The notes under the pieces were generated by a model. The model did not search any database. It worked only from the letters and a program-made list of their open reading frames with translations, and was not told the DNA's origin. A stretch of DNA of 41,632 nt from Bifidobacterium breve. Its GTDB lineage: Bacteria > Actinomycetota > Acidimicrobiia > Acidimicrobiales > Ilumatobacteraceae. The DNA is taken from positions 1-41,632 of the forward strand of contig CAMCZG010000009.1 of assembly GCA_945886445.1 (NCBI GenBank), in the 5' to 3' direction. Position numbers and translations under genes: made by a program. This document shows, piece after piece, positions 7,006 through 39,148 of this stretch. Every line of letters starts with the position of its first letter. Position 1 is the first letter of the stretch.

Positions 7006-7427
7006 GTCTCCCTCGTCCCGATGAAGTTCTTCCTCATCGTCCGCCATTTTTATTCATTGATGAAGTGATTGAACTCGTCGATGGCGAATCTGCAGTTGGT
7101 GTTTGGAACCTCAGCGGCAATGAATGGTTCTTCCCTGGGCATTTCCCTGGTCGGCCAACCCTGCCTGGTGTTCTCATGTGTGAAGCAATTGCGCAACTCG
7201 GTGCGTATGTAGTTCTGAGCAACCAAAAATACGTAGGGAAATTACCTTTGTTTGGCGGGCTCGACTCCGCTCGATTCCGTAAGCAAGTTGGTCCTGGCGA
7301 TCAGTTGCGTCTTGAAGTTTCATTAGGAAAGATGTCTGCACGCGCAGGAAAAGGTTCGGGTCGTGCTCTCTTAAGCGGCGAAGTTGCATGCGAGTGCGAA
7401 CTCTTCTTTGTGTTGGTAGACGCGTAG
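7002..7427 (+). CDS. fabZ: 3-hydroxyacyl-ACP dehydratase FabZ
   Basis: 141 aa hotdog-fold enzyme that dehydrates 3-hydroxyacyl-ACP in the fatty acid elongation cycle. The start is the ATG in the ATGA overlap with bcp, giving MSLPRPDEVLPHRPPFLFID, the usual FabZ N-terminus; a longer open frame exists only inside bcp. The catalytic pair is H47 in FFPGHFPGRP and E61 in LMCEAIAQLG, with the 14-residue spacing of the family. It runs convergently into fabF, 10 bp away, so the dehydratase sits next to, but on the opposite strand from, the rest of the fatty acid synthesis genes. Confidence 0.93.
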   Translation: MSLPRPDEVLPHRPPFLFIDEVIELVDGESAVGVWNLSGNEWFFPGHFPGRPTLPGVLMCEAIAQLGAYVVLSNQKYVGKLPLFGGLDSARFRKQVGPGDQLRLEVSLGKMSARAGKGSGRALLSGEVACECELFFVLVDA

Positions 7428-7437
7428 ACCCTGCTAG

Positions 7438-8637
7438 TTAACGCGGTGGGGCAATAATGACTGAACCGTTATGACCACCGAAGCCGAAGTTGTTCGACAT
7501 TGTTGGGCCTGGGGTCCATGGTCGGGGTGTGCCGAGAACGAGATCAATATTAAGTGCGGGGTCCAGCTCTGTTGTTCCAGCAGTTGGTGGTATCAGTTTC
7601 TTATCGAACGCAAGAAGCACTGCGGCTGCTTCAAGAGCACCAGCTGCTCCAAGAGCATGACCAGTTACGCCTTTAATGGATGTGACAATAGGACGTGAAG
7701 AGCCAAACACCTCTGCCATGGCAAGACCTTCAGCAGCATCGTTGAGTGGTGTTGAAGTTCCGTGAGCATTGATGTGTGCAATGTCTTCGGGTCCTAATTC
7801 TGCGTCGAGAAGAGCAGCGCGCATGCATGCTTGTGCGCCGGCACCACCAGGCGCTGGAGCCGTAATGTGGTGTGCGTCGGCATTGCTCGCTGCACCGAGA
7901 ATTTCTCCCAAAATAATGGCGCCGCGCTTTTCGGCCAGGTCGTAACGTTCCAAAATGAAAACTGCTGCACCTTCACCCATCACAAAACCGTCTCGAGTGG
8001 TGTCGAATGGTTTGCTGGTGCCCGATGAAGACAACGCAGTCATATTTCCAAAACCAGCCATTGAGGTTGGGGTTGCCGCCGCTTCAGAACCACCAGTAGC
8101 AACTGCATCACATGTGCCGTAAGCAATGAGGCGAGCGGCATAACCAATGGAGTGGCTCGATGCCGCACAGGCCGTGCTAATTGTTTCGTTGGGGCCTTGC
8201 AGGCCGTAGCGCATCGAAATGGCTGCTCCAGAGGCATTTGCCATCATCATGGGAACAAGAAACGGTGAAACGCGACGCGGACCCTTTTCTAAAAGAATCG
8301 TTATTTGTTCTTCAAGGGTTTTGATTCCACCAATGCCGGTGGCAAAGATGGTGCCAAAGCGACTTTTCTCGACAGTGATGTTTCCTGCCTGAGCAAATGC
8401 TTCTGCCGCTGCAGCAAGAGCAAATTGTTCAACACGATCGGCGCGGCGAGCATCTTTAGGGTTGTCGAAGTAGGGAAGCGGATCCCACTCGGGAACATTT
8501 ACTTGTTTTGAGTTGGTGATTCCTGGGCCTATGAGACCAGACCAAAAATCTTGCTTACCTAAACCACAGGGCGCAACAACGCCGTAACCAGTGATGGCAA
8601 CGCGATGTGGCCCGCCCGTCGTGAATGGGTTACGCAT
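7438..8637 (-). CDS. fabF: 3-oxoacyl-ACP synthase II (KAS II)
   Basis: 399 aa condensing enzyme that extends acyl-ACP with malonyl-ACP. The Cys-His-His triad is visible: Cys in STACAASSHS, His in NAHGTSTPLND and His in KGVTGHALGAAG; the C-terminus SNNFGFGGHNGSVI is the standard ending. The start overlaps the acpP stop by 1 nt (TAATG). It is the last gene of the minus-strand operon and meets fabZ tail to tail with a 10-bp gap, leaving no room for a separate terminator hairpin. Confidence 0.97.
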   Translation of the reverse strand: MRNPFTTGGPHRVAITGYGVVAPCGLGKQDFWSGLIGPGITNSKQVNVPEWDPLPYFDNPKDARRADRVEQFALAAAAEAFAQAGNITVEKSRFGTIFATGIGGIKTLEEQITILLEKGPRRVSPFLVPMMMANASGAAISMRYGLQGPNETISTACAASSHSIGYAARLIAYGTCDAVATGGSEAAATPTSMAGFGNMTALSSSGTSKPFDTTRDGFVMGEGAAVFILERYDLAEKRGAIILGEILGAASNADAHHITAPAPGGAGAQACMRAALLDAELGPEDIAHINAHGTSTPLNDAAEGLAMAEVFGSSRPIVTSIKGVTGHALGAAGALEAAAVLLAFDKKLIPPTAGTTELDPALNIDLVLGTPRPWTPGPTMSNNFGFGGHNGSVIIAPPR

Positions 8638-8873
8638 TAGAGCTTGGAGACCACCAGGTCATAAGCCTGACCAATGGTTTCAATTCCGTCGAGATCTTCT
8701 TCGGGTACTTCCACGCCGAATTCTTCCTCAAGAGCCATGACGAGTTCGACGAGGTCGAGGCTGTCGGCATCGAGGTCATCACCGAAACGTGCCTCTTTGG
8801 TTATTTTTGCTGCATCGACTGACAAGACACTGACAGCACACTTTGTGAAACGGGCAAAAAGATCGTCGCTCAT
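8637..8873 (-). CDS. acpP: Acyl carrier protein
   Basis: 78 aa, strongly acidic helical protein that carries the growing acyl chain on phosphopantetheine. The attachment serine is S38 in the DADSLDLVELV motif; EEFGVEVPEEDLDGIETIGQA follows as in canonical ACPs. It is preceded by a near-perfect ribosome binding site, the best in the operon, as expected for the most abundant protein of the pathway. A 103-bp gap separates it from fabG, the largest gap in this operon. Confidence 0.98.
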   Translation of the reverse strand: MSDDLFARFTKCAVSVLSVDAAKITKEARFGDDLDADSLDLVELVMALEEEFGVEVPEEDLDGIETIGQAYDLVVSKL

Positions 8874-8877
8874 AATT

Positions 8878-8883
8878 TCCTCC
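8878..8883 (-). promoter_or_regulatory. Strong ribosome binding site of acpP
   Basis: On the minus strand GGAGGA stands about 5 nt before the acpP ATG, an almost complete match to the anti-Shine-Dalgarno sequence. Most other starts in the window have weak or no such site. Confidence 0.8.
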
Positions 8884-8931
8884 GGTTAATGAGAGCACAT
8901 CGTACTCATCTCTATTCTTACAATTTTTCAC

Positions 8932-8956
8932 CCCCTCATGAGGTATTACTGAGGGG
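8932..8956 (-). other. Hairpin in the fabG-acpP gap
   Basis: CCCCTCA (8932-8938) pairs with TGAGGGG (8950-8956) around an 11-nt loop. No T tract follows on the minus strand, so it is not a simple terminator. It could be an mRNA processing or stabilising element that uncouples acpP abundance from the upstream genes. The structure is seen; the role is a guess. Confidence 0.3.
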
Positions 8957-8976
8957 TACTTGCAGTGTTCGTTGAC

Positions 8977-9696
8977 TCAGTGACCCATTCCTAAACCACC
9001 ATCAACAGGAATGACGGCTCCAGTGATGTAAGCGGCGTCCTTCGACGTGAGAAATGTCACTACGCCTGCAATTTCATCGGGCGTTGCCATGCGTTGAAGT
9101 GGGACCGCGGCTGTGAGTTCACTGAGACGCTTTTCCCCGAGCGCTGCTGTCATATCGGTTTCAACGGGCCCTGGCGCAACGACATTGACGGTGATGCTGC
9201 GTGAACCGAGTTCGCGAGCAAGCGAACGAGCAAATCCGACGAGGCCAGCTTTAGAAGCTGCGTAGTTGGACTGACCTGCTGAACCCAACAGACCCACGAC
9301 TGACGAGATGAGCACAATGCGTCCACTGCGCGCACGCAGCATATTTTGAGACGCACGTTTCGACACCCGATACGCGGCGGTCAAATTTGCATCAATCACG
9401 CTGGTGAAGTTCTCTTCGCTCATACGCAAGAGCAGCCCGTCCTGCGTGATGCCTGCATTCGATACGAGAATTTCAATATTGCCTAGTTGCGACTCAACTT
9501 CGGTAAAAGCTGCATCAACTGAAGTTGTTGAAGTGACATCACATTGCACTGCAACAACGCCGAGATCGGTGAGTTCCTTGGGAACAGGTGATGAGTTGTA
9601 TGTAACGGCAACTTTGTCTCCTTCGGCAATGAAACGACGCGCACACGCAGCGCCAATTCCTTTGGACCCACCCGTAATAAAAACTACTCGCGACAT
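8977..9696 (-). CDS. fabG: 3-oxoacyl-ACP reductase
   Basis: 239 aa short-chain dehydrogenase that reduces 3-oxoacyl-ACP with NADPH. The cofactor loop is TGGSKGIGAACARR, followed by NAGIT. The catalytic residues are S132, Y145 and K149 (SNYAASK). The start MSRVVFITGG is preferred over upstream in-frame starts because it overlaps the fabH stop by 1 nt (TGATG) and begins directly at the first beta strand, with GGTGGGG as ribosome binding site. It ends PVDGGLGMGH, typical of FabG. Confidence 0.95.
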   Translation of the reverse strand: MSRVVFITGGSKGIGAACARRFIAEGDKVAVTYNSSPVPKELTDLGVVAVQCDVTSTTSVDAAFTEVESQLGNIEILVSNAGITQDGLLLRMSEENFTSVIDANLTAAYRVSKRASQNMLRARSGRIVLISSVVGLLGSAGQSNYAASKAGLVGFARSLARELGSRSITVNVVAPGPVETDMTAALGEKRLSELTAAVPLQRMATPDEIAGVVTFLTSKDAAYITGAVIPVDGGLGMGH

Positions 9697-10643
9697 CAGT
9701 TGCCCCACCTGATGACACAACTTGCGACGGTCATGCCAGCACCAAAACCGACGAGTAAAACAAGATCGCCATCTTTGAGGCGACCATTATCTGCGGCATC
9801 GAAAAGAGCCAGGGGAATAGATGCCGATGAGGTGTTTCCTGTTTCGTGTAAAACAGTGATGCACTTTTCAGGAGGAAAGCCAAGCTTTTCGCATGCAGAA
9901 TTAATGATTCTTATATTCGCTTGATGCGGAACCACGAGAGCGATGTCGTTTGCGGTGATACCTGCGGCATTAAGAGATTTTTGACCAGAATCGACCATGA
10001 TGCGCACTGCACGACGAAAAACTTCTTTCCCGTCCATGTGTATTTTGCCGCCCACTTCGCAGTACAAAATATTTTCAGCGGAACCGTCGGCATCTATATC
10101 CCAAGACAAAAGGTTGTTTGGCCCGTCATGAGCTTCAACAACTGCGGCTCCTGAGCCATCGGCAAAAAGAATTGCGGTGTTGCGGTCGGTCCAGTCGGTA
10201 ATGCGCGACAAAGTGTCGGTGCCTATCACAAGAACCTTTTCCGCCCCCATTGCTATGAGTCCGTATGCATTGACTAGTGCATAGACGAATCCGCTGCATG
10301 CTGCATTGACATCAAATGCCCCACAAGAGAGCCCGAGCGCATTTTGAACATTCGCCGAAGTGGCAGGAACTGTTCTGTCGGGAGTAGTAGTGGCGAGAAT
10401 TAATGCATCAATGCTGCTGGGGTCAACACCAGCCATTGCAAGTGCCTTGGATCCACTTTCAATAGACAAAGAAGCGGTACTTCCTCCAATATGGCGGCTC
10501 ACAATTCCTGTTCGCTCACGAACCCATTCATCGTTGGTGTCGAGTGATTTCTCAAGATCGACATTGGTGACAACATTGTCGGGAAGAGCGCGGCCCCAAC
10601 CAGTAATGCTGGCGCCTCTCACATGTGCAGGTGTACGTGGCAT
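9696..10643 (-). CDS. fabH: 3-oxoacyl-ACP synthase III (KAS III)
   Basis: 315 aa enzyme that starts fatty acid synthesis by condensing acyl-CoA with malonyl-ACP. The catalytic Cys is C116 in DVNAACSGFVYAL, the His is in VVPHQANIRI and the Asn in HETGNTSSASIPLAL. The N-terminal arginine motif NDEWVRERTGIVSRHI for CoA binding is present. It begins 6 bp after the fabD stop and overlaps fabG by 1 nt. The preferred primer (acetyl or branched) cannot be read from the sequence. Confidence 0.97.
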   Translation of the reverse strand: MPRTPAHVRGASITGWGRALPDNVVTNVDLEKSLDTNDEWVRERTGIVSRHIGGSTASLSIESGSKALAMAGVDPSSIDALILATTTPDRTVPATSANVQNALGLSCGAFDVNAACSGFVYALVNAYGLIAMGAEKVLVIGTDTLSRITDWTDRNTAILFADGSGAAVVEAHDGPNNLLSWDIDADGSAENILYCEVGGKIHMDGKEVFRRAVRIMVDSGQKSLNAAGITANDIALVVPHQANIRIINSACEKLGFPPEKCITVLHETGNTSSASIPLALFDAADNGRLKDGDLVLLVGFGAGMTVASCVIRWGN

Positions 10644-10649
10644 TGCGGT

Positions 10650-11825
10650 CTAGTTGCTCCGTAGCCAGGCAATGGGTTGACGATGAGTAACTCGTTCACC
10701 TTCCACGGCGATAAAGCTTTGCAAAATTCCTGCGAACGGGCTACGTACTTCTTGATCGGCAACAGTGCCAAGAATTTCGCCAACAGCGATGACCGTTCCT
10801 GCTGGGTGCGCGGTATCGACGCTAAATACGCCTGCGCATGGGCTCACAATAAGACGCTCAACAGCAAAGAGGTGCTCGCCTTCAAGAGGTGCTGGTGCTG
10901 TGGAGAGACTCTTATTTACCCAGTCAATGAGTTTGTCGAGTTCATCAGGAGTGGAAACGCTCATCGTGCGAGCGTTGTCAACAGTGCGCTTGGCCATGCC
11001 TGTGAGAACTCCACCTGGACCTAGTTCAACGAATCCAGTGACACCAAGTTCGGCCATGGTGAGAAGTGAATGCTTCCAGCGCACGGGGCTAGATAGCTGC
11101 GCCGAGAGCAAAGAGGCCCATTCTTCTCCCGAACTGTGGGCGAGAGCATCAACATTAGAAATGACGGCGACTTCGGTGTCGCGCGGCTGAGCTGATGCAA
11201 TGGCGAGGCGCAAGCGGTCGCGTGCTGCTGTCATGAAGGGAGTGTGAAAAGCCCCCGAGACCTGCAAAGGCATCACTTTTTTTGCACCGAGTTCTTTCGC
11301 GTGAATTGTTGCCGCAGCAACGCCACTGGGTGACCCGGCTATTACTACTTGTCCGGGGGCATTGAAGTTTGCTACCCATACGTCGCTGTCGGCCCGGCGG
11401 CAAGCAATTTCCACATCTTCATCATCGAGACCAAGAACCGCGGCCATAGTGCCAGGGTTTTCGTTCCCTGCGTCGTGCATTGCGGCGGCTCGTTCCACAA
11501 CTAAGGCAATGCCATCTTCAAAGCCGAGGGCACCAGTCGCGGTTAATGCGGTGTATTCGCCGAGGCTGTGACCTGCGCAGAAGCTTGGTTCAATGCCGAG
11601 TCGTTCAACGGCGTCAAGAACCATGAGGCTGGAAACATAAGTGGTGAGCTGAGCATTTCTGGTGTCTTTGAGTTCTTCAGCATCGGCATCGAGGAGGAGG
11701 CGCGCAACGTTCTTGCCTGATAGCGACGAGGCTTCTTCAACGAGTTCCCAGCTGTCGTGATCGACCCAAGGGCGGCCCATACCGGGGCGCTGAGAGCCTT
11801 GGCCGGGGAATGTAAAAGCGAGCAT
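10650..11825 (-). CDS. fabD: Malonyl-CoA:ACP transacylase fused to a C-terminal biotinyl/lipoyl-like domain
   Basis: 391 aa, about 75 longer than a normal FabD. Residues 1 to about 300 are the acyltransferase: FPGQGSQRPGMG, the nucleophile S87 in AGHSLGEYTAL, and the active-site His in GAFHTPFM; it moves malonyl groups from CoA to ACP. Residues 319-391 form a second module reading LIVSPCAGVF, then VGEILGTVADQEVRSPFAGIL and IAVEGERVTHRQPIAWL, the hammerhead pattern of AccB/lipoyl domains. The EAMKM hairpin with the modifiable lysine is missing (GTVADQEV stands there). The ATG at 11825 is chosen because the protein starts directly at the conserved first strand; the longer open frame runs back through the tRNA gene. 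First gene of the operon. Confidence 0.9.
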   Translation of the reverse strand: MLAFTFPGQGSQRPGMGRPWVDHDSWELVEEASSLSGKNVARLLLDADAEELKDTRNAQLTTYVSSLMVLDAVERLGIEPSFCAGHSLGEYTALTATGALGFEDGIALVVERAAAMHDAGNENPGTMAAVLGLDDEDVEIACRRADSDVWVANFNAPGQVVIAGSPSGVAAATIHAKELGAKKVMPLQVSGAFHTPFMTAARDRLRLAIASAQPRDTEVAVISNVDALAHSSGEEWASLLSAQLSSPVRWKHSLLTMAELGVTGFVELGPGGVLTGMAKRTVDNARTMSVSTPDELDKLIDWVNKSLSTAPAPLEGEHLFAVERLIVSPCAGVFSVDTAHPAGTVIAVGEILGTVADQEVRSPFAGILQSFIAVEGERVTHRQPIAWLRSN

Positions 11826-36178: not shown

Positions 36179-36262
36179 GTCGAAGTGGCGAAATAGGCAG
36201 ACGCACCAGCTTAAGGGGCTGGCGCTCGTAAGAGCGTGGGGGTTCAAGTCCCCCCTTCGACA
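36179..36262 (+). tRNA. tRNA-Leu (anticodon read as AAG)
   Basis: The 84-nt class II tRNA has acceptor GTCGAAG paired with CTTCGAC, discriminator A, D stem GCG/CGC, anticodon stem CCAGC/GCTGG with loop TTAAGGG, variable arm CGCTCGTAAGAGCGT, and T arm GGGGG-TTCAAGT-CCCCC. With the perfect 5-bp stem the anticodon (36213-36215) is AAG, which would need A-to-inosine change to read CUU and CUC; bacteria normally use GAG here. CCA is not encoded. Its 3' end is one copy of the direct repeat flanking the cassette downstream. Confidence 0.88.
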
Positions 36263-36275
36263 CTCTGAATTGGGC
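36248..36275 (+). repeat. Direct repeat copy 1 (putative attL) at the tRNA-Leu 3' end
   Basis: 28 bp, comprising the last 15 nt of tRNA-Leu (from the T loop/stem through the discriminator) plus the next 13 nt, CTCTGAATTGGGC. It is identical to 37432-37459 in the same orientation. The bases just outside differ, although imperfect similarity seems to continue about 17 bp to the right (GAATTGG again at 36286). Confidence 0.9.
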
Positions 36276-36354
36276 GGATTCCCAGGAATTGGAAACGTGC
36301 TCCCCTGTTTTAGACCATGGTTATGAGGCAGCACAAAGTGTTCTAGGGTGCCCA

Positions 36355-37272
36355 ATGAACCCATTTGCAAAGTCCAGGTCTTATTCGCGTAAATCTGTAG
36401 GTGTGATGCTTCTTGTTGGTGTTTTAGTTGGCATCACAGTTGGTGGAGGAGTGGGAGTGTTCGCTTCTGCTGTAACAAAATCTGTGACGGTGTGTGCCAA
36501 CAAGAAAACGAGCGTGTTGCGCTACGCCAAGAGCGGCAAGTGTTCAAAGTCTGAAACGAGAGTTGTCTTGAACCAGACGGGCGCTTCTGGTGCTGATGGT
36601 ATTGGGGCTTCTGGACCTGCTGGAGCTACAGGCCCCGCTGGACCCGCAGGAGTGGCTGGTGTGAACGCAACGAGCGCAATCACGCAACAATCGGTGTGTG
36701 ATGGATCTGATGTTGACACTGTTGCTAACGAGTTGTGCAAGATCGGCATGACCGGTCCTGGTGGCGGAATTATTTTCTATGTTGATTACAACGATCAGTA
36801 TGCGGGTTTGAATTATTTGGAAGCCGCCCCTGTCGGTTGGGGTAACGGTATTGCAGTTGACGTGGCTAGCGGTGAAGTCACTGGTAGCGCAACCGTTGAC
36901 CCAGCATTGCTGTGGTGCTCTAATACTTCTTCGTTGCTGGCTGGTAAAACATGGGCTAATGCGGCAGTCGGCGCTGGAGCAACCAATACGTCAACTGCAG
37001 ATGCAACGTGTACCAGCGGCGCTATACATGCTGCATCTGATTACGCAGGTGGAGGTAAGACCGATTGGTTTGTGCCATCTTTGTCCGAGTTGGCGCTGAT
37101 CTACGCCAATCTGCGTCAGATAGGTACCAACGGTTTTTCTAATGGCGGTTATTGGAGTTCTACTGAGTACGGCGAGGCAAACGCATGGAGTCGAAATTTC
37201 AACGTTGGGGAAGATCTCTTTGGCAGCGCAAAAGTTGATGGTAACTTTGTGCGTCCAGTGCGCTCATTCTGA
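36355..37272 (+). CDS. Membrane-anchored collagen-like/DUF1566-type surface protein
   Basis: 305 aa from the ATG at 36355, with AGGGTG upstream. Residues about 14-38 form a hydrophobic signal anchor (VGVMLLVGVLVGITVGGGVG). A short segment with two Cys (VTVCANKKTSVLRY, GKCSKSETR) precedes about ten Gly-X-Y-like triplets (GASGPAGATGPAGPAG). The rest resembles the DUF1566/Lcl domain: GPGGGIIFYVDY, YLEAAPVGWG, DWFVPSLSELALIY, YWSSTEYGEANAWSRNF and VRPVRSF. It probably sits outside the membrane and may bind a ligand or surface; no function is established. It is the only intact gene between the 28-bp repeats. Confidence 0.8.
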   Translation: MNPFAKSRSYSRKSVGVMLLVGVLVGITVGGGVGVFASAVTKSVTVCANKKTSVLRYAKSGKCSKSETRVVLNQTGASGADGIGASGPAGATGPAGPAGVAGVNATSAITQQSVCDGSDVDTVANELCKIGMTGPGGGIIFYVDYNDQYAGLNYLEAAPVGWGNGIAVDVASGEVTGSATVDPALLWCSNTSSLLAGKTWANAAVGAGATNTSTADATCTSGAIHAASDYAGGGKTDWFVPSLSELALIYANLRQIGTNGFSNGGYWSSTEYGEANAWSRNFNVGEDLFGSAKVDGNFVRPVRSF

Positions 37273-37385
37273 ATCAATATCGAGTGTTGACGCTCCAGCA
37301 CTACGCAGGCGTTAACCGCCCCAACACCCGCGTGTTATCTTCGTCAAAGCGGTGAGGTGCCGTTAACGCGAACAAGGAGAAACCC

Positions 37386-37487
37386 ATGTCCGATAAGGAT
37401 CGTGGGATTCTGCCCGATGCGAGTGTGGAGGGTCCCCCCTTCGACACTCTGAATTGGGCATATACCCTGAATTTGGTCAAGGGGTGA
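37386..37487 (+). CDS. Short frame crossing the second repeat; probable truncated or chimeric gene
   Basis: 33 codons starting MSDKDRGILPDASVEG and ending at a TGA at 37485. It has one of the best ribosome binding sites in the window, AAGGAG at 37374-37379, 6 nt before the ATG. The first 15-16 codons lie in the cassette; the next nine or so are encoded by the 28-bp repeat, and the last ones by the chromosomal flank. It may be the 5' end of a cassette gene cut by recombination at the repeat, or a genuine small peptide. No homology is recognised. Confidence 0.35.
   Translation: MSDKDRGILPDASVEGPPFDTLNWAYTLNLVKG
37432..37459 (+). repeat. Direct repeat copy 2 (putative attR)
   Basis: 28 bp identical to 36248-36275: 15 nt of tRNA-Leu 3' sequence plus CTCTGAATTGGGC, offset by 1184 bp. 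No tRNA 5' part precedes it. A degenerate GAATTTGG follows at 37469, mirroring GAATTGG beyond copy 1, so weak similarity continues to the right. Confidence 0.9.
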
Positions 37488-37615
37488 AAAGATAGCCCTA
37501 TGCAAGGCAACCTTGGCCCAGTGGCACTATGGGAACATCGCGAGCGCCGGGTGATGATCGCGAAACTTGCGCTACAAGAGTAGGAGCGGGGCATTTATTT
37601 ATCCTAAATTTAAGT

Positions 37616-39148
37616 ATGCGTTCAAATATTGGCTCTGTACTCAGTAAGCGTGCTCTCCTAAATCCCGACAACGAAGCATTGTTCGACGTGTCGGCCGGTC
37701 GTCGATTCACATTTAGGGAATTGAATGACCGATCGAACCAGGTGGTGAACGCCATAACACCCCAGGTGAAAAAGGGTGATCGCGTTGCGCTGCTCATGAT
37801 GAACTCTCATGAATACATGACTGCGTTCTTTGCTATCGCGAAAATTGGTGCGGTAGTTGTTCCGCTGAACTGGCGGCTAGTGCCAGATGAGCTGGAATTT
37901 ATTCTTAAAGATTCTGGTTGCACGGTGTTGTTCTATGGCGAAGAGTTCACGCCAACTGTTGGAGAGTTGCATCCACGCGGCAATAAGACCGATATTTCTT
38001 TTTGGATTCACTCCGGTAGTGCAGATAACACGCCGGCGTTTGCGCGGAACTTCAATGCAATTGTTGACCCTGCGCCAACAACCGAGCCGGTGATCACTGC
38101 ATTTGATGATGACTTGCTCTACATCATGTACACATCGGGTACTACTGGTCTTCCAAAGGGCGTCATGCACACGCATACAACGCAGATGGAAGCATTGCTC
38201 ACAGTTAACGCCTCTGGCGATTACTGCACTGGCGATAGGTATCTGAACCCGATGCCACTCTTCCATGTAGGCGCGCTGACTCCGGCAATCGTGGTGACGT
38301 ACCGAGGTCTTGCACATATTCTGATGCGCTCATTTGACCCTGTAAAAGTATGGGAACTTGTGCGTGACGAAAAGATCACAAACGCGCTTTTGGTGCCTGC
38401 GATGCTCGGGGCCTGTCGCATGGTGTACGACCCGAAATCTCACGAGCACAAAAATTTGCGATGGTTCCTCAGTGGTGCTGCGCCGGTGCCAAAAACACTC
38501 ATTGAGGCATATGCGGAAATGGGCATCGATATTCATCAGGTTTATGGGCTCACTGAAACCTGCGGTCCAGCATGTTTGACAGCCCCAGAAGATGCACTCA
38601 GGAAAGCTGGTTCAACAGGCAAGGCGTTCTTCCATACCGATGTGAAGTTGGTGCGCCCAGACGGTTCAGAATGCGCAGACGACGAGCCAGGCGAAGTTCT
38701 CATTCGTGGTGGACACATCATGACTGGTTATTGGAATCGCCCGGAGGCCACTGCAGAAGTAATTCAAGACGGATGGTTCTATAGCGGTGACATTGCCACT
38801 CGTGACTCAGAGGGATTCATCTGGATTCAAGATCGGTTGAAGGACATGATCATCTCGGGCGGGGAGAACATTTATCCTGCCGAAATTGAGAATGTCATTC
38901 TGGGGCACGCTGGTGTCGCTGACGTAGCAGTCATTGGGGTTCCTTCGGAGAAGTGGGGAGAAGTTCCTCTTGCAATAGTTGTGAGAAAAGATCCTGCGCT
39001 CGAAGACTCAGCAGTGCTTGCTCACTGCGAAGGAAAACTGGCACGATTCAAAATGCCGAATGCTGTTCGCTTCGTTGACGTGATTCCACGTAATGCATCA
39101 GGTAAGGCGTTGAAGCGTGAATTGCGGCTACAGTTCCCCAGCCTCTAA
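37616..39148 (+). CDS. Acyl-CoA synthetase (AMP-binding, long-chain fatty acid-CoA ligase like)
   Basis: 510 aa. It activates a carboxylic acid with ATP and joins it to CoA. Motifs: P-loop YTSGTTGLPKGVMHTH, A5 YGLTETCGP, A7-A8 GWFYSGDIATRDSEGFIWIQ and DRLKDMIISGGENIYPAEIE, and the C-terminal catalytic Lys in PRNASGKALKRELR. The ATG at 37616 is preferred because it begins the conserved N-terminus (MRSNIGSVLSKRALLNPDNE); the longer frame overlaps unsupported sequence. Upstream is AT-rich (TATCCTAAATT) with no ribosome binding site, so the message may be nearly leaderless. The exact substrate is unknown. Confidence 0.88.
   Translation: MRSNIGSVLSKRALLNPDNEALFDVSAGRRFTFRELNDRSNQVVNAITPQVKKGDRVALLMMNSHEYMTAFFAIAKIGAVVVPLNWRLVPDELEFILKDSGCTVLFYGEEFTPTVGELHPRGNKTDISFWIHSGSADNTPAFARNFNAIVDPAPTTEPVITAFDDDLLYIMYTSGTTGLPKGVMHTHTTQMEALLTVNASGDYCTGDRYLNPMPLFHVGALTPAIVVTYRGLAHILMRSFDPVKVWELVRDEKITNALLVPAMLGACRMVYDPKSHEHKNLRWFLSGAAPVPKTLIEAYAEMGIDIHQVYGLTETCGPACLTAPEDALRKAGSTGKAFFHTDVKLVRPDGSECADDEPGEVLIRGGHIMTGYWNRPEATAEVIQDGWFYSGDIATRDSEGFIWIQDRLKDMIISGGENIYPAEIENVILGHAGVADVAVIGVPSEKWGEVPLAIVVRKDPALEDSAVLAHCEGKLARFKMPNAVRFVDVIPRNASGKALKRELRLQFPSL

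Follow-up and report, generated by a model that had tools for sequence, protein, structure and literature searches.

The window analysed here is the whole of the 41,632-nucleotide (nt) contig CAMCZG010000009.1 (contig C9 of G000, a draft genome of 2.14 Mb and 93% completeness assigned to the Ilumatobacteraceae), and our subject is a small cassette enclosed by direct repeats at the 3' end of a tRNA-Leu gene. The tRNA gene (36179..36263, plus strand; anticodon AAG; ARAGORN and Rfam RF00005), the apparent integration target, is still intact. The 28-nt sequence GTCCCCCCTTCGACACTCTGAATTGGGC is present exactly at 36248-36275 (left repeat, attL core, plus strand) and at 37432-37459 (right repeat, attR core, plus strand), with starts 1184 apart, just as the preliminary description had reported. 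Its further statement that the repeat includes the tRNA 3' end also holds, with the partition corrected from 15 + 13 nt to the final 16 nt of tRNA-Leu (GTCCCCCCTTCGACAC, the tRNA core) plus 12 nt of flank, as given by the ARAGORN bounds. The likeness of the two copies reaches 45 nt at 87%. Upon shuffling the downstream DNA 1000 times, no match longer than 14 nt was obtained, compared to the 28 nt observed. A search for further copies of the motif (26-nt core, up to 3 mismatches) in the 2.14-Mb genome returned the two known ones only, and for the remaining 38 of the 39 tRNAs examined, a scan of up to 14 kb downstream, where the contig allows, revealed no recurrence of the 3' end (at least 14 nt). 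An Rfam match to CRISPR-DR58 over the tRNA end lay below threshold and was rejected.

Located between the repeat copies is a sole intact gene (36355..37272, plus strand) and no integrase, in keeping with the earlier claim of one full collagen-like/DUF1566 gene. The encoded protein of 305 amino acids (aa) combines a signal-peptide-like N-terminus with a collagen-like Gly-rich stretch and an Lcl_C domain (formerly DUF1566; PF07603, E=2.8e-9), and is hence described as a secreted collagen-like protein. It belongs to a diverse family whose relatives are found many times over across the genus. Among the cargoes of this and the related cassettes considered below, it alone was matched in PHROGs, chiefly to a family of unknown function and weakly to a tail fibre, while PADLOC gave no defence-family match for the five cassette proteins.

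The tRNA-Leu site in related genomes

Twelve genomes of the same genus were searched with the window locus and their junctions were read. In G006, the tRNA-Leu and one 28-nt copy are followed directly by the right flank of the window (82.8% identity over 37432-37559); because this single copy is joined straight to the sequence that follows the right copy of the window, G006 represents a site without the cassette. G009 exhibits tRNA-Leu, a 1.6-kb insert with a single gene (an FG-GAP/fn3 protein with LPXTG-like anchor) and then the 16-nt core a second time. What follows on the right in G009 (CACGTAATAGGGGGCTATATGG...) is found in G012 joined directly to an uninterrupted tRNA-Leu site, so that filled and empty junctions can be compared in sequence: G009 reads GGAGG|GTCCCCCCTTCGACACCACGTAATAGGGGGC and G012 reads TTCAA|GTCCCCCCTTCGACACCACGTAATAGGGGGC, and the next 1598 base pairs (bp) are 94% identical. 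A third, unrelated cargo precedes the core in G008 (only the C-terminal 82 aa are assembled), and a prsW-like gene follows. The cargo DNA of G000, G009 and G008 shows no nucleotide similarity among the three, and the right flanks of these cassettes are three different ones. Close relatives therefore do not uniformly carry the same gene and both repeats with ordinary vertical divergence, as G006, G009 and G008 all differ. The empty site and the alternative cargo that the preliminary description had proposed to look for are thus both found, the former in G006 and the latter in G009 (between two 16-nt core copies) and in G008, each with the same right end.

The conserved right end

G000, G008 and G009 share homologous sequence over some 125 bp on the left side of the right core, with pairwise identities of 84-92%. 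In the window this right end, hereafter the R module, spans 37306..37431 (plus strand) and it occurs only at the tRNA-Leu cassettes of these three genomes: no further instance was detected in 221 genomes of the family, and the 29 most conserved nt of the module were found in none of the 396 remaining genomes in a 397-genome sample of the order. In the three-way alignment, an invariant 34 nt, GATCGTGGGATTCTGCCCGATGCGAGTGTGGAGG (37398..37431, plus strand), abut the tRNA core and constitute a candidate recombinase recognition half-site. No difference among the three genomes is seen in the 34 nt or in the 16-nt core, at a locus where host DNA is up to 18% different. Spanning the junction of R module and core is an imperfect inverted repeat, GAGTGTGGAGGG-TCCC-CCCTTCGACACTC (37421..37449), which is present in the site of the cassette and not in the plain tRNA. 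When the left arm was shuffled 5000 times, an equally good fold arose in only 12 cases. Two core-type recombinase binding sites, for which these arms are candidates, would be expected to look like this, although the repeat was spotted post hoc.

A short open reading frame (ORF) with a good ribosome-binding site, MSDKDRGILPDASVEGPPFDTLNWAYTLNLVKG (37386..37487, plus strand), crosses the right repeat and is probably no functional gene. The possibility of the R module being a protein gene was considered and dismissed, since the ORF MSDKDRGILPDASVEGPPFDT... has a different end in each genome and conservation is at the DNA level. Given this conservation at the nucleotide level, together with the differing ends of the overlapping ORF, the R module reads as a putative recognition site. 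The G008 version is closer to that of G009 than to that of G000, contrary to the order of the hosts, in a stretch that is too short to be decisive. Several candidate matches were discarded: one to the R module in G156 lies inside a leuD-like gene and was judged a chance match, a viral-contig match to the R peptide (L164) gave no alignment to the module, and a viral-contig match to the 16-nt core belongs to a phage gene coding for 'PPFDT' by chance. A 20-nt core pattern was not found in the viral contigs, and phage records returned just three short, unrelated matches.

Left end and neighbouring sequence

The left end of the cassette (L; TCTGAATTGGGCGGATTCCCA, 36264..36284, plus strand) resembles the left end in G009, the corresponding sequence in G006 (16-18 of 21 nt in common) and the right flank of the window itself. 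An L-like sequence (CTCTGNATNGGGC then CCC) stands right of the core at both the left and right positions in G000 and in G006 and G009, and is not seen in G012, G011, G001 and G010. To judge from this distribution, the 28-nt identity may be composed of the 16-nt tRNA core and 12 nt of an L end that is common to successive insertions.

Following the right repeat is a remnant (37460..37559, plus strand) of the left end of a sensor-kinase island, which in G006 comes directly after tRNA-Leu, and overlapping it is the 3' remnant of a prsW-like gene (37541..37583, plus strand), of which longer forms are present here in G005, G008 and G011. The region 37460-37583 is a patchwork in which the start of a kinase gene and the end of a prsW gene are fused at a short shared motif, and it is a deletion scar to the right of the cassette. 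Outside the cassette lies an acyl-CoA synthetase gene (37616..39148, plus strand; AMP-binding PF00501), and the neighbours at the locus also include an ATP-binding cassette (ABC) transporter, secG and an HTH_67 gene. Searching the genome contigs with the acyl-CoA synthetase revealed no close relatives of the window locus.

Elements at other tRNA genes

A scan of 116 tRNA occurrences in the fetched loci, some of which overlap, was made for 3'-end repeats. Apart from repeats that are simply other tRNA genes, these were found for tRNA-Leu of the window and G009, tRNA-Val of G011, tRNA-Thr of G012, and in G034 and G013. The G011 element (L265:9235-10067, minus strand) has an exact repeat of 44-48 nt, with copies 757 bp apart, and one gene for a 233-aa protein like mycothiol maleylpyruvate isomerase (MDMPI_N-like, marginally below the Pfam cut-off); the stop codon of this gene adjoins the right repeat. 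That of G012 (L255:177-585) has a 27-nt repeat with one mismatch, at a distance of 335 bp, and a single 78-aa membrane-protein gene. The same tRNA-Thr site is variable in other genomes: G009 has the 78-aa gene without the right repeat; in G007 the gene is absent and the right flank of G009 stands directly behind the tRNA; in G006 the gene is interrupted by inserted DNA; and in G002 it is absent, with another secreted-protein gene instead. The core starts at the T-loop end in tRNA-Leu, in the T-arm in tRNA-Thr and in the anticodon arm in tRNA-Val, and these differing points suggest the work of different recombinases.

Larger or different structures were also noted. G034, of another genus, carries a 5.2-kb element at tRNA-Leu, and G013, of another genus of the family, has a tandem 61-bp duplication directly downstream that includes the 3' half of tRNA-Leu (L125, reverse strand 6-153). 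On contig C7 of G012 (L215, reverse strand 7056-11501), a 4.4-kb element at tRNA-Val encodes a 256-aa tyrosine integrase and one 1005-aa secreted surface protein with RCC1 repeats; through this element the 5' part of the tRNA has been doubled, and one copy consequently lacks its native 3' end. This element is possibly the autonomous counterpart of the cassettes. Lastly, a number of contigs end 9-28 bp past a tRNA 3' end (G000:C33:13-85, C44:16-86, G009 C21, G011 C20), which is seemingly commoner than contig density predicts and thus suggests strain-level variation at other tRNA ends.

The existence of autonomous tRNA elements in the genus, exemplified by the 4.4-kb element of G012, and the decayed pieces (kinase-gene start, prsW end) in the right flank of the window would both suit a scenario of decay, in which larger, integrase-bearing elements at tRNA-Leu shrank to one useful gene and two ends. 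We regard this as unlikely. The integrase-free cases are five, all of them within 0.3-1.6 kb, and four of the five are assembled at both ends and have exactly one complete gene; moreover, the lack of an integrase remnant and the occurrence of unrelated cargoes with the same R end would require decay to have converged repeatedly. An intact element with the R end was not encountered in the 221 family genomes or the 397-genome order sample.

Recombinases in the carrier genomes

G000, G008 and G009 each encode two Phage_integrase proteins. The two types are found throughout the genus and, from their conservation, are presumably XerC and XerD; no serine recombinase of the Resolvase family was found in these three. 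Extra integrases are confined to other genomes, where several adjoin other tRNAs. The search for tyrosine recombinases that the preliminary description had recommended thus yields two only, both conserved and Xer-like. Since the carriers yielded no tyrosine recombinases but these, the two host enzymes could themselves be supposed to move the cassette, in the manner of integrative mobile elements exploiting Xer (IMEX). The core is, however, a G+C-rich tRNA sequence with no dif-like A+T-rich arm evident by eye (no dif search was made), and the different cores at other tRNAs are hard to square with a single Xer specificity, making this explanation extremely improbable.

Discussion

Based on the collective evidence, the element in the window is probably a non-autonomous cassette with a single gene, mobilised in trans and inserted into the chromosome at the tRNA-Leu(AAG) 3' end through site-specific recombination. 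The earlier reading of a cargo-only cassette at a tRNA end is thereby strengthened, through the comparisons with G006, G009/G012 and G008, the lone pair of repeat motifs and the recombinase census; we infer the mobilisation in trans, together with a circular intermediate, a tyrosine recombinase acting in trans and mobility at the present day. In the proposed mechanism, the attachment site of the circular cassette would consist of R end, 16-nt tRNA core and L end. A phage, plasmid or larger integrative element now absent from the genome would supply, in trans, a tyrosine recombinase to recombine the core of the circle with the tRNA end, with the outcome that the tRNA is restored, the cargo gene is in place and a second core copy stands at the right. 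The R end would be the conserved cis-acting part and the cargo the exchangeable one.

Several observations weigh against this interpretation. All genomes involved are incomplete drafts (G000 at 93%, G008 and G009 at about 80%), hence an integrase could be missing, and neither a circular form, nor a recombinase, nor an autonomous relative with the R end was found among them. The G006 site is not a bare tRNA, for it accommodates another island (histidine kinase-like gene, response-regulator-like gene), and the left junction of G008 is missing from the assembly. The divergence of the R ends (8-16%) is near that of the hosts, which makes an older presence in the genus possible. In addition, the locus to the right of tRNA-Leu is a recombination mosaic, and homologous recombination after insertion may therefore have swapped some of the right flanks. 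Between G009 and G012, identity is 94% over the 1.6 kb that follow tRNA-Leu (L113:7346-8957 compared to L114), against 79.5% upstream of the gene and 84% for two unlinked loci; judging by these figures, the 94% stretch was exchanged recently, and the tRNA marks its edge. G000 and G008 are 95.6% identical upstream and 75% downstream. The mosaic junction, and likewise the similarity of the repeat copies out to 45 nt, could be taken to mean that homologous recombination or duplication sufficed, with a tRNA-end segment duplicated or the cargo swapped via the homology of tRNA and flank, in no need of a site-specific enzyme. This we consider very unlikely. In two species pairs the breakpoints coincide with one and the same 16-nt tRNA core, and in other species with the ends of other tRNAs; a core of 16 nt would offer homologous recombination very little length to act on; and none of the cassette-free sites has the R end as part of its host sequence.

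Extending the reading of a cassette mobilised in trans, one may speculate, with considerable reserve, about a genus having an integron-like economy without integrons, in which cassettes of the form L-gene-R, built around a core from a tRNA 3' end, accumulate in stacks at tRNA genes and depend solely on visiting recombinases for their movement. The tRNA-Leu of the window would then hold two stacked units, namely cassette A and a kinase-unit remnant that starts with the same L end. There are parallels to integron gene cassettes and to clusters of attC sites lacking integrases (CALINs), which likewise consist of one gene with one conserved recombination end and are moved in trans, but which differ by IntI and the attC consensus, the site here being a tRNA 3' end. 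An intI integrase is absent from G000, which has just the two genus-wide Phage_integrase types, and inspection of the R and core sequence revealed no attC boxes (GTTRRRY/RYYYAAC).

Tycheposons of Prochlorococcus, which are tRNA-bordered like the window cassette, include cargo-only forms, that is, cargo without or apart from the recombinase. According to the excerpt of PMC10872708, full tycheposons are of 4-200 kb with a tyrosine recombinase, in contrast to the 0.3-1.6 kb of the cassettes here, for which no helper is seen; the window cassette of 1.18 kb contains no recombinase, and a helper with matching ends was not found in the genome or genus, in assemblies that are incomplete. Nor does the cassette have an integrase of its own beside the attachment site, as an autonomous element or prophage would. 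In the additive island fGI-2 of Methylophilaceae (Betaproteobacteria), the same excerpt states, the boundaries are repeats of the final 20 bp of tRNA-Lys, and the variable content amounts to 330 bp-42 kb with 1-63 genes (PMC10872708); repeats of a tRNA end are thus common to both, and the excerpt describes no shared end module for fGI-2.

The same anatomy is displayed by 'Ca. Actinomarinales', also Acidimicrobiia, in the tRNA-targeted gene cassettes of its additive flexible genomic islands (PMC7771536, in whose main text the word integrase is absent). As in additive islands, the window has an insertion at a tRNA 3' end closed by a direct repeat of that end, and gene content varies at the same tRNA among close relatives (three unrelated cargoes and cassette-free sites). 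In 'Ca. Actinomarinales', however, the cassettes build one envelope-polysaccharide island with several tRNAs (PMC7771536), whereas single genes at scattered tRNAs are found here, and the neighbours in the window do not form such a conserved, order-wide island; the tRNA-Leu cassettes are distinct, too, in their conserved R end across unrelated cargoes. Considering 'Ca. Actinomarinales' (PMC7771536) and the Methylophilaceae additive islands of down to one gene (excerpt of PMC10872708), tRNA-targeted cassettes are already a known kind. New here are the integrase-free single-gene units at several tRNAs, the cross-species comparisons of sites and the defined right end common to unrelated cargoes.

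The conserved end (GATCGTGGGATTCTGCCCGATGCGAGTGTGGAGGGTCCCCCCTTCGACAC) provides a sequence handle with which metagenomes can be searched for genes flanked by R module and core, the cassette pool catalogued and the recombinase found. With such a handle, cassettes that are genuinely minimal mobile units could be told from decayed islands, a question that usually goes unanswered when cargo is flanked by a tRNA. The benefit to the host is likely a turnover of secreted or surface proteins, and our study has importance in suggesting that small-genome aquatic bacteria exchange single genes, here often for secreted proteins, with little visible machinery.
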